The notes under the pieces were generated by a model, which did no database searches, was not told where the DNA came from, and was given only the letters and a program-made list of their open reading frames with translations. Positions 12,545 through 17,700 of a stretch of DNA of 36,074 nt are shown piece by piece; position 1 is the first letter of the stretch, and each line of letters opens with the position of its first letter. This DNA is from Lysobacterales bacterium (GTDB taxonomy: Bacteria; Pseudomonadota; Gammaproteobacteria; Xanthomonadales; SZUA-36). The position numbers and the translations under genes are program-made. The stretch spans positions 1 to 36,074 of the forward strand of contig JANQPM010000117.1 in assembly GCA_028289465.1 (NCBI GenBank). The letters run 5' to 3'.

Positions 12545-13336
12545 ATGACTGGTCGATGGTCAAGATTAATCGCAGGCGGGGCCGGTCTCTGGCTGGCCTC
12601 GTCGAGCGGTTTCGCACAGGCACAACTGGACCAAAGCCTGATCGCCGATTTGGTGCTGCAGGTTCAGCAATTGCAGGAAGAAGTACGGCAGTTGCGCGGC
12701 CAGGTCGAGCAGCAGAATTACCAGATCGAACGCCTGGAAGAGCGCCAGAAAGCCCAGTATCTGGACCTTGACGAGCGCCTGACCGATTTGCAATCCGGTG
12801 CGGTTGCAGCACCCGCCCCGAATACGCCGCCGATAGCGGCATTGGAGCCGCCCACTGCGACCGATCAGCCACCGGACAACGACGCCACTGCGAATAGCGA
12901 CACACAGAATGACGCCGGGGACACAGTTGCCGCAGTGAATCCGGCTATGGATGAAGAAGGAACGTATCGAAGCGCCTTCGATCATCTTAAGGCGCTGCGC
13001 TATGTCGATGCGGCGGAAGGCTTTATGGACTATCTGGAGCAGCATCCGGACAGCCCGCGTGCCGGTAATGCCCAATACTGGCTGGGCGAATCCTACTACG
13101 TCACCCGCAACTACGAAATCGCACTGGATGTCTTTCAAGAACTGCTGGAAAAATATCCGGAATCCAACAAAGTGGCCGATGCCTGGCTGAAGATCGGCTA
13201 CACCCACTACGAACTGAAGAACTGGGACCGGGCGCGCGATGCATTGACGCGGGTTGTGGAACAGTACAGCAGCACCAACCTGGCTCGACTGGCAGAGAAT
13301 AGGCTGCGGACAATGCGGCTGGAAGGCCATTATTAG
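12545..13336 (+). CDS. cpoB: Cell division coordinator CpoB (YbgF)
   Basis: 263-aa periplasmic protein. The signal peptide ends about GFAQA, followed by a trimerising coiled coil at ~30-85 (LVLQVQQLQEEVRQLRGQVE...), an Ala/Pro/Thr/Asp-rich linker at ~88-135, and a C-terminal TPR domain at ~140-263 (YRSAFDHLKALRYVDAAEGF, then NAQYWLGESYYVTRNYEIAL). In E. coli CpoB links Tol-Pal activity to PBP1B; an mrcB gene occurs later in this window. It lies 35 bp after pal and is the last gene of the tol block. The tandem-repeat region begins only 3 bp after its stop. Confidence 0.94.
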   Translation: MTGRWSRLIAGGAGLWLASSSGFAQAQLDQSLIADLVLQVQQLQEEVRQLRGQVEQQNYQIERLEERQKAQYLDLDERLTDLQSGAVAAPAPNTPPIAALEPPTATDQPPDNDATANSDTQNDAGDTVAAVNPAMDEEGTYRSAFDHLKALRYVDAAEGFMDYLEQHPDSPRAGNAQYWLGESYYVTRNYEIALDVFQELLEKYPESNKVADAWLKIGYTHYELKNWDRARDALTRVVEQYSSTNLARLAENRLRTMRLEGHY

Positions 13337-13338
13337 GA

Positions 13339-13830
13339 GTTCGTTCAGCGCTTCTTTCACACCCTCTTCCGGGTGTAAAAACCGCCCCTCACTCACGGCG
13401 TTAAAAGAAGATGCTCGCTGGCGCTCGCGAAAGCCGGGGGAGTTCGTTCAGCGCTTCTTTCACACCCTTTCCGGGTGTAAAAACCGCCCCTCACTCACGG
13501 CGTTAAAAGAAGATGCTCGCTGGCGCTCGCGAAAGCCGGGGGCGTTTGTTCAGCGCTTCTTTCACACCCTTTCCGGGTGTGAAAACCGCCCCTCACTCAC
13601 GGCGTTAAAAGAAGACGCTCGCTGGCGCTCGCGAAAGCCGGCGGCGTTCGTTTGGCGCTTCATTCATGCGTTGCCAGGCGTGAAAATCGCCCCTTGCTCA
13701 CCGCGTTATTGGAAGATGCTCGCGTACGCTCACGAAGACGGGCGGCGTTTGGTCAGCGTTTCGTTAACGTGCTGCTTCGGCGTGTTGAATTTAGGTGTTT
13801 TTCGCCCGTGTAGCGCTAAATACACTGCCG
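13339..13830 (+). repeat. Tandem ~102-bp intergenic repeats, four clear copies and a decayed fifth
   Basis: Copies start at about 13339, 13442, 13544, 13646 and 13747 (periods 103, 102, 102, 101). Copies 1-3 are nearly identical, copy 4 is clearly diverged, and copy 5 is recognisable only in its first half. Each begins G-T-T-[C/T]-G and contains a hairpin ACACCC-TTTCC-GGGTGT; in copy 3 this extends to a perfect 10-bp stem TTTCACACCC/GGGTGTGAAA. A potential outer pairing CTTCTTT/AAAGAAG encloses it. The array fills the cpoB-queE gap. Because 102 is a multiple of three, one frame stays open through it (13254-13910), but I see no gene-like start or composition. Confidence 0.9.
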
Positions 13831-13861
13831 TTTGCGCGGCGTGGCAGGTACAATATTGGGT

Positions 13862-14536
13862 ATGGAAAGACCGTCCGACAGCGTGCCGGAGTCGCGTGAA
13901 AATTGCTTGAAAATCACGGAGATATTTCATTCCGTGCAAGGGGAGGCCAGAGATGCCGGACGCCCTACGGTTTTTATTCGGCTGACCGGCTGTCCACTAC
14001 GCTGCCAGTACTGCGATAGCGAATACGCATTTTATGGTGGGCAGTGGATGCAGTTTGATCAGATTCTGCAGCAGGTGGCGGCTTATCATACGCCATTGGT
14101 ATGCGTAACCGGCGGTGAGCCGCTGGCGCAGAAACGCTGCCATCAGTTGCTGACCCGGTTATGCGATGCCGGCTATCGGGTGTCGCTTGAAACCAGCGGT
14201 GCGATCGATCTGGCCGAGGTCGATCCGCGGGTGGTCAAGGTTGTCGATATCAAGACACCGGATTCTGGTGAATGCCCGCGTAACCTGTGGGATAATTTGC
14301 AGCACCTGAATCCGGCGGATCAGCTCAAGTTCGTTATTTGCTCACACGATGACTACCGGTGGGCGCGTTCGCAGCTTGGATCCAGGGATCTGATCGAAAA
14401 AGACGTTATTTTTTCCCCCAGTTATCAACAGCTTGAACTACGGGACCTGGCTGAGTGGGTATTGAACGATCGGCTGAACGTCCGGGTGCAGATTCAACTG
14501 CATAAAATACTCTGGGGTGATGTGCCCGGTAAATAG
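13862..14536 (+). CDS. queE: 7-carboxy-7-deazaguanine synthase QueE
   Basis: 224-aa radical SAM enzyme that contracts 6-carboxytetrahydropterin to 7-carboxy-7-deazaguanine, a step to queuosine in tRNA. The [4Fe-4S]-binding CxxxCxxC is Cys44, Cys48, Cys51 in GCPLRCQYC. Upstream is the family segment FHSVQGEARDAGRPTVFIRL. SAM-binding GGEPL (VTGGEPL) and the DIKTPDSGE region are present. The ATG at 13862 is chosen because the QueE N-terminus follows; an upstream TTG adds ten unlikely residues. No good ribosome-binding site is visible, but a -10-like TACAAT lies 8-13 bases before the ATG. It precedes queC by 34 bp. Confidence 0.95.
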   Translation: MERPSDSVPESRENCLKITEIFHSVQGEARDAGRPTVFIRLTGCPLRCQYCDSEYAFYGGQWMQFDQILQQVAAYHTPLVCVTGGEPLAQKRCHQLLTRLCDAGYRVSLETSGAIDLAEVDPRVVKVVDIKTPDSGECPRNLWDNLQHLNPADQLKFVICSHDDYRWARSQLGSRDLIEKDVIFSPSYQQLELRDLAEWVLNDRLNVRVQIQLHKILWGDVPGK

Positions 14537-17320: not shown

Positions 17321-17396
17321 GGGCCGTTAGCTCAGTTGGTAGAGCAGTGGACTTTTAATCCATTGGTCGTAGGTTCGAATCCTACACGGCCCACCA
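17321..17396 (+). tRNA. tRNA-Lys, anticodon TTT
   Basis: 76-nt cloverleaf with encoded CCA. The acceptor stem GGGCCGT pairs with ACGGCCC. The D arm is GCTCAGTTGGTAGAGC, the anticodon loop is CTTTTAA with anticodon TTT, and the T arm loop is TTCGAAT closed by GTAGG/CCTAC. tRNA-Lys at this position after queC matches the Pseudomonas gene order. Confidence 0.97.
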
Positions 17397-17425
17397 TTTT
17401 TAGGGGATGTACCCCTAAAAATGGT
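17393..17425 (+). terminator. Perfect 14-bp hairpin overlapping the tRNA CCA end
   Basis: ACCATTTTTAGGGG (17393-17406), loop ATGTA, then the exact complement at 17412-17425. It begins inside the CCA end. There is no T-run directly after, so it may be a processing or 3'-protection structure; the likelier stop signal is the T6 run at 17506-17511. Confidence 0.5.
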
Positions 17426-17556
17426 AGTCCCTGCAGGGTTCGCTACTCCTGGGGTTTTCGAGTGGTTTGAGGTTTGACACTGCCTCGCAGGGGGCGCTCT
17501 CAGTCTTTTTTATTTCTGCTCCGCGCGACGCGATTCGAATCCTACACGGCCCACCA

Positions 17557-17586
17557 ATTTTTCGGGGGTTCCACCCCCCAAAAAAT
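17557..17586 (+). other. Second-unit hairpin after the duplicated tRNA end
   Basis: ATTTTTCGGGGG pairs with the C6-A6-T tract at 17574-17586 with one mismatch around a TTCCA loop. It has the same position as the first-unit hairpin but a different sequence, so pairing is kept while bases changed. Confidence 0.6.
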
Positions 17587-17700
17587 CAGTGAGCCGTGCA
17601 GCATCCACCACTCTTGGGTTTTCTGACGATTTGAGGTTTGACACTACCTCGCAGGGGACGCTCTCAGTCTTTCTTACTCTCGTTCAGCGCGATGTGACGC

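Follow-up and report, generated by a model that had tools for sequence, protein, structure and literature searches.

Enterobacterial BIMEs are tandem, mosaic arrangements of palindromic units, and IS200/IS605 elements insert without target duplication. Recognition of the attC sites of integrons depends on a folded single strand, whose structure outweighs its sequence, and these sites carry the core boxes RYYYAAC and GTTRRRY at their ends. The hairpin units described here, which form an array between cpoB and queE, resemble BIMEs in their tandem and mosaic arrangement, and differ from them in sequence, size and array period (66 to about 164 bp). They resemble IS200/IS605 elements and their RAYT Y1 (HUH) relatives in the folded strand and in the unpaired bases at its foot; in contrast, the rather insensitive Y1_Tnp model has no match in this genome, and the flanks examined of intact Y1-like genes lack units. 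As for attC, GTTRRRY lies near the 3' end in 26 of 113 units, but both core boxes together occur in none of the 113, and no cassettes are seen between unit copies.

The units also resemble REPs. What defines a REP superfamily is an unpaired foot of the hairpin, GTAG (GYRG) in one and CGTC in the other (PMC3733652). As REPs and REPINs are described there, our units share with them the short imperfect hairpin, high copy number, mostly intergenic and clustered placement, loops of 2-4 nt, mosaic arrays and, since those elements are believed to be non-autonomous, this property as well (PMC3733652). Measured against the same description, our units are longer (66-70 nt) and have four short helices with kept internal loops, their stems vary freely within one genome, and no flanking transposase was found (PMC3733652). 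A GTAG (GYRG) foot, the tag of one superfamily, is present in 3 of the 113 units with either strand considered, and the CGTC tag of the other in 7 of the 113. The unit works like a REP, but by its tags it belongs to neither of the REP superfamilies described. Rfam 15 gave no match to the array in the window (E<=1) and none on units in ten unit-bearing loci (E<=0.5). The sequence does not read as an intrinsic terminator either: there is no 3' T run, and on both strands Ts precede and As follow the hairpin. No description of this hairpin family was found in the open-access literature searched, which is not proof of novelty.

The window, i.e. the whole stretch of 36,074 nucleotides analysed, is contig C30 of a 2.95-Mb assembly in 121 contigs (the source genome, G000). 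Its features around the array are listed below with the matches to two covariance models. R1 is a first model of the hairpin core, built with array copy 4 among its sequences, so the R1 match of that copy is not independent. R2 is a 70-nt model built from an alignment (A4) of 12 units from Marinicella (f8) and from the family of the window, none of them from this genome. The z values compare folding with that of shuffled sequences.

12545..13336, plus strand: cpoB, with a TolA-binding trimerisation domain and TPR; its stop codon lies 2 bp before the array
13254..13910, plus strand: 218-codon open frame spanning the array, judged non-coding
13339..13762, hairpin units on the minus strand: tandem array, period 102 bp, 4.2 copies, Tandem Repeats Finder score 601
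13340..13395, minus strand: hairpin unit of copy 1; R2 E 0.015, model positions 12-56; exact core 13350-13385
13400..13440, strand not given: spacer between hairpin cores, of the GATGCTCGCTGGCGCTCGCGAAAGCC type, repeating along with the unit
13443..13497, minus strand: hairpin unit of copy 2; R2 E 0.014; exact core 13453-13487; z -2.64
13542..13603, minus strand: hairpin unit of copy 3, with the longest stem; R2 E 0.002, model positions 8-59; exact core 13555-13589; z -3.39
13644..13704, minus strand: copy 4, decayed; R1 54.3 bits; R2 E 6.8; z +1.20
about 13746-13797, minus strand: partial remnant of copy 5, read from the sequence, with no R2 match listed
13865..14536, plus strand: queE, radical SAM; 13865 is the start used in searches, and an ORF start at 13832 is also possible

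The layout described in the initial annotation is confirmed on all three counts: a real array of about 102 bp fills the gap between cpoB and queE, it consists of four clear copies followed by a decayed fifth that extends to about 13797, and it diverges toward queE, with identity to the first reference copy falling from 98 to 89 and 73% in successive copies. The minus-strand orientation of the units is assigned because of the polarity of G·T versus A·C mispairs in the wider repeat family (see below). Copy 1 is without a partner for the outer helix A, as the cpoB stop codon is immediately adjacent to the array. A coding tandem repeat is ruled out, as the 218-codon frame has no Pfam match and stays open because 102 = 3 x 34.

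The ACACCC/GGGTGT hairpin pointed out in copies 1-3 is present, and on the minus strand these copies fold better than shuffles (z -2.75, -2.64 and -3.39, respectively). The wider fold of copy 2 adds the outer helices GAGU/ACUC and GCCG/CGGC, with a loop layout as in the family. The initial annotation had also placed weight on a stem retained in copies 4 and 5, and this does not stand: copy 4 folds no better than shuffles on the minus strand (180 of 200 shuffles at least equal) or on the plus strand (z -0.30), and copy 5 no better than chance on either (z +0.05 minus, -1.53 plus). Among 11 cores from this genome, one pair is changed on both sides, no more than expected by chance (398/500 shuffles). 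Covariation within the array or within these 11 cores, and the folding of copies 4 and 5, were accordingly discarded as evidence. A conserved stem is displayed by the genome-wide family and is not demonstrated by the array on its own. Three array copies are nevertheless the three top matches of R2 in the 36-kb window, the next match having E 0.057, although they score poorly (16.7-19.6 bits), reach model positions 8-59 at best and leave helix A outside the match. On the margin between E 0.002-0.015 and 0.057, we call the array a diverged member of the hairpin family.

Comparison with relatives places the array in a variable gap. The queE protein is 53-69% identical in 21 relatives, and cpoB is present in the queE locus of 19 relatives, with cpoB-queE gaps that range from nearly none to more than 900 bp. 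An R2 search found no hairpin unit in the cpoB-queE gaps of these 19 relatives, and we see no positive evidence for a function of the array for cpoB or queE. In three relatives (L427, L429 and L435, from G011, G004 and G005, respectively), the gap holds a different long palindromic element, TGACTGGTCCA...CACCC...GGGT..., so the cpoB-queE gap seems prone to repeat insertion. Reverse-strand ORFs that resemble a HicB/HicA pair by eye lie in the gap of L427 and L434 (G011 and G015), and in L431 (G001) the cpoB and queE matches are on opposite strands, face to face, unlike in other relatives.

Outside this gap the hairpin is abundant. A blastn search with the array led to related cores on another contig, recognised by eye as three 150-bp units after infA, and 164-bp units carrying a related core lie between tRNA genes of this genome. 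R1 then gave 86 matches in the genome. On the strand opposite to the window, the constant core reads GCGGTTT, then a self-complementary stretch of varying sequence, then AAAGAAGC; this exact pattern occurs at 121 sites in the assembly (65 forward, 56 reverse), as against 0 for the backwards control, and a relaxed pattern with shorter anchors on each side occurs at 291 sites as against 17 in its control, i.e. about one site per 10 kb. A satellite confined to the cpoB-queE locus is ruled out by these cores elsewhere, and the possibility raised in the initial annotation that the unit occurs only here applies to the exact 102-bp unit, which was seen nowhere else, but not to its core. R2, although none of its sequences come from this genome, finds at least 149 matches in it at E<=1, with 150 candidates scored; at least 112 of these matches have E<1e-6 and cover the whole model. 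Further tandem arrays lie on contigs C62 (115 bp), C27 and C37 (66 bp each) of this genome and, in relatives, on G180 C34 (130 bp), G063 C2 and C9 and G099 C41 (66 bp each), so that periods by locus are 66, 102, 115, 130, 150 and about 164 bp; this genome and Marinicella have the 66-bp period in common.

The family is restricted to a clade. At E<=1e-5, R2 matches 61 of 250 genomes of the order, 16 in the family of the window, 17 in f8, 27 in f9 and 1 in f10, and the single-contig genomes G058, G076 and G116 are among them; the best 20 candidates per genome were scored, which makes per-genome counts lower bounds. L163, a locus of Marinicella sp. IP29b_bin.79, and G063 share an identical stretch, which identifies f8/g37 as Marinicella (order Lysobacterales). 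The core pattern is matched in 92 of 398 genomes of the order, single chance matches included. In a class-wide sample of 369 genomes, more than one core match is found in this genome only (112); nine others have one each, and in eight of the nine the match is without a 5-bp stem. A pattern scan of genome contigs gave, among the matches listed, two clear family members, L163 (Marinicella) and L188 (CAJXKA010000005.1, labelled Oceanospirillales). Phages and plasmids are ruled out as the main home, with one weak plasmid record and with viral-contig matches listed that are almost all non-palindromic chance matches. Within one family, the copy number of the unit ranges from none to more than 100 by genome. 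Of the 149 listed R2 matches in G000, 23 are no more than 320 bp from the first base of a contig, and in G063 several units lie in the last 100-250 bases of contigs; the hairpin repeat breaks assemblies.

Read on one strand, the unit typically forms a linear hairpin, about 66-70 nt long, with four short helices and kept internal loops, and its layout can be written A|GNNN-A-(G)GYn-(A/G-rich loop)-variable helix B-GC-GGT-variable helix C-short loop-GAA-GC-helix B'-...GCC-GTn-NNNC|GTG. Lengths are kept outside the innermost helix, and many units are exactly 70 nt. The loop of helix C is cGNAg in 64 of 143 hairpins (24 cGCAg, 20 cGAAg, 10 cGTAg and 10 cGGAg). Units start with AG in 99 of 113 cases and end with CGTN in 80 but with CGTG in 61, so the 3' GTG tag varies. 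GCGGTT and AAGAAGC look invariant in part because of ascertainment, since many loci were found through patterns that contain these letters.

The fold of this unit is supported by compensatory change. In A4, 92.7% of 273 cells are paired and 16 of 23 pairs are double-changed, with 69 double-changed cells as against a mean of 22.4 in shuffles (0/500) and at most 13 in slid controls; RNAalifold on A4 independently gives 23 pairs, 16 with a double change. Loci that differ in layout or stem length were left out (L087, L103 and L107 from alignment A3, L065 and L057 from A4), so that A4 favours the commonest layout, and row L109 was dropped from A2. A larger alignment (A5), fitted to the model, comprises 146 R2 matches from 80 loci in 134 distinct rows and has double compensatory changes in 20 of 23 pairs, with 825 such cells as against 252 in shuffles and at most 137 in slid controls. 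Covariation, which the initial annotation proposed to look for, is no more than chance in the 11 own-genome cores and clear across the family. Stems differ freely within one genome, whereas the internal loops and the lengths outside helix C are kept between families. Together with strand-specific wobble, the compensatory double changes identify a structured element of RNA or single-stranded DNA.

One strand of the unit folds. Among 42 units that share less than 80% identity, there are 49 G·T mispairs as against 9 A·C (p 9e-8), and in A4 there are 16 as against 1. A model-free count at the five outer positions of 201 hairpins, which are not independent, gives 182 G·T as against 13 A·C once the inner stem has been filtered in a strand-symmetric way. 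The inner stem itself is nearly all Watson-Crick, at 1011 of 1029 pair cells, with 7 G·T and 3 A·C. Palindromes merely kept perfect in duplex would give equal G·T and A·C, and the G·T excess therefore points to folding of a single strand. This is the strand that reads GCGGTT..AAGAAGC, which is the minus strand in the window, and predicted RNA folding is stronger on it in 36 of 37 units tested. The polarity does not separate folded RNA from folded single-stranded DNA and would fit both alike. Movement as single-stranded DNA of the lagging strand would lead one to expect a bias with respect to replication; the folding strand is the C-rich one in 25 of 39 regions, which is not significant (p 0.11).

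Empty and filled sites suggest that the unit moves. A resident hairpin, GCGGTTTTCGTCC-GCA-GGACGAAAGAAGC with close variants, is intact in 18 distinct contexts, and at 7 further places its loop is opened by one unit (93 and 94 nt), two (161 and 161), three (224 and 226) or four (294). In a longer composite repeat, the empty state, ACCCAACCGGGGTC-GGC-GGGTCGCC with variants (25 nt to the same end), is found in 16 versions and the filled state (90-91 nt), with one unit whose ends are the ends of the model, in five; a sixth row is an extension of an empty site and is not counted as filled. Both states of this repeat coexist within G011 and within G014. Gain rather than loss is the presumed direction at the loop sites, where loss of a unit would give an identical pattern. 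Among 82 distinct loci outside this genome, 66 of which carry units or were fetched by them, seven hold units inside large Y1-transposase-like genes (L105 = L487, L107 = L163, L114, L386, L496, L498 and L503), with up to five units in one gene. The junction in L386 reads CCAAGCAC|unit|TGCTTGATG, and its intact homologue L423 reads CAAGCACTGCTTGATG, so that the insertion adds the hairpin alone between CAC and T, i.e. A|GTG on the folding strand. Other junctions in Y1-like genes are off by at least one base (NEY|IAR in L114 and L105 by one base, L107 with a short deletion), for which reason we infer the A|GTG target rule rather than observe it. Around 74 unit islands, crude ORF calls give 25 convergent, 17 divergent and 32 codirectional neighbours, and in the codirectional islands the units have the same orientation in 13, the opposite in 10 and both in 9, i.e. 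no orientation bias; 22 further islands lie inside called ORFs and are outside the 74 classed. As a high-copy hairpin with evidence of dispersal, the unit is a REP-like mobile palindromic repeat in the broad sense.

A search for the mobilising enzyme gave a candidate family with what are probably ends of its own. At E<=0.01, this genome gave no match to Y1_Tnp (PF01797), a model that is insensitive to large Y1-like proteins: it gives them only 21-26 bits and missed the intact gene of G057. PF01797 is over the cut-off in 13 of 21 relatives, unrelated to unit number, being present in the motif-poor genomes G010, G005 and G018 and not listed in the motif-rich G063, G129 and G180. The large Y1-like transposase of f8 and f9 is RAYT-like, of the SWFM..NEYIARRAN type, with 315-350 aa, and two of these proteins come near NF047646 REP_Tyr_transpos in NCBIfam, below threshold (44 bits, cut-off 80). 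In the flanks examined of six intact genes (L399, L408, L415, L416, L417 and L423), no unit was found. The motif AGGACA(T/G)GCA lies upstream of large Y1-like genes (L408, L415, L423 and L386), and its inverse lies downstream in L415, L423 and L386, sometimes in tandem; these motifs are probably the ends of the Y1-like genes themselves, unrelated to the hairpin units. Among 90 of the 148 listed ORFs flanking units that were scanned, no common gene family had more than three members.

The initial annotation had proposed a structured RNA or a REP-like mobile family rather than neutral satellite alone, which is supported, but by family-wide evidence and not by the stem of the array. We consider it fairly probable that, between cpoB and queE, a high-copy structured repeat restricted to one clade has been amplified locally and has diverged, and that this repeat is a mobile hairpin of a REP-like, non-autonomous kind; it is likely that the unit moves as a single strand. 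Such a non-autonomous element would move as one folded strand; its internal loops and ends, not its stems, would serve for recognition, and it would enter A|GTG-like sites without target duplication. Arrays like that between cpoB and queE may then arise via repeated or adjacent insertion with slippage, followed by decay. HUH enzymes act on hairpins of single-stranded DNA, and a Y1/HUH (RAYT-like) enzyme is our leading guess for the mobiliser. Whether this is the large Y1 transposase of f8 and f9, mobilising the units in trans, is a more tentative matter: the units within its genes and the sub-threshold kinship of its proteins to REP_Tyr_transpos argue for it, but intact gene copies lack a unit in the flanks examined and end in another motif, AGGACA(T/G)GCA, and the distribution of PF01797, whose model misses the subfamily, bears no relation to unit number.

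A folded RNA would also give the double compensatory changes, the strand-specific tolerance of G·T and the stronger predicted RNA fold on one strand, and the units might be sRNAs or RNA-processing/UTR elements whose fold is kept by function and whose dispersal is secondary. We regard this as unlikely, as single-stranded DNA would give equal polarity, the units show no orientation bias to neighbouring genes and match no Rfam family, and nested and gene-interrupting copies fit mobility. It is more improbable still that they are neutral palindromic satellites in which template switching corrects quasi-palindromes with no selection on the fold. Correction would indeed yield almost perfectly Watson-Crick inner stems, and the array of the window is decaying; however, correction in duplex gives no reason for the excess of G·T over A·C, nor for internal loops and lengths outside helix C that are kept between families. 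The least credible reading, in our estimate, takes the units as sites of a chromosome-organising protein (e.g. gyrase or a nucleoid protein) amplified by selection: their density and mostly intergenic placement would suit it, as would BIME-like mosaics, but copy number varies from none to more than 100 within one family and units interrupt genes.

Beyond the array, and only tentatively, we suggest that the REP-like mobile hairpins form a class defined by structure, present in Marinicella, the family of the window and two further families: hairpins of about 66 nt with free stems that would travel as a folded strand, insert at A|GTG-like sites and prefer hairpin loops, their own kind included, and Y1 genes, by means of an enzyme tied to no palindromic repeat as yet. 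With it, the palindromic repeats would gain a family that falls into neither described REP superfamily. Its signals of compensatory change and strand polarity are very clear for an interspersed repeat, and the natural empty and filled pairs, with one, two, three or four units at one site type, make the spread of RAYT-less hairpin repeats directly testable. The hairpin repeat also explains assembly breaks.

Two other repeats lie in the window. Downstream of tRNA-Lys (17321-17676), a 164-bp tandem duplication (1.9 copies) comprises the final 23 nt of the tRNA-Lys gene together with its downstream hairpin, and looks like a tRNA 3'-end duplication or an integration scar. Near the contig end (35860-36050), about 70 bp are repeated in inverted orientation (GAGCCTTGCCATAGACTCGAATGTAGTCG...), possibly as a fold-back assembly artefact or an inverted repeat.
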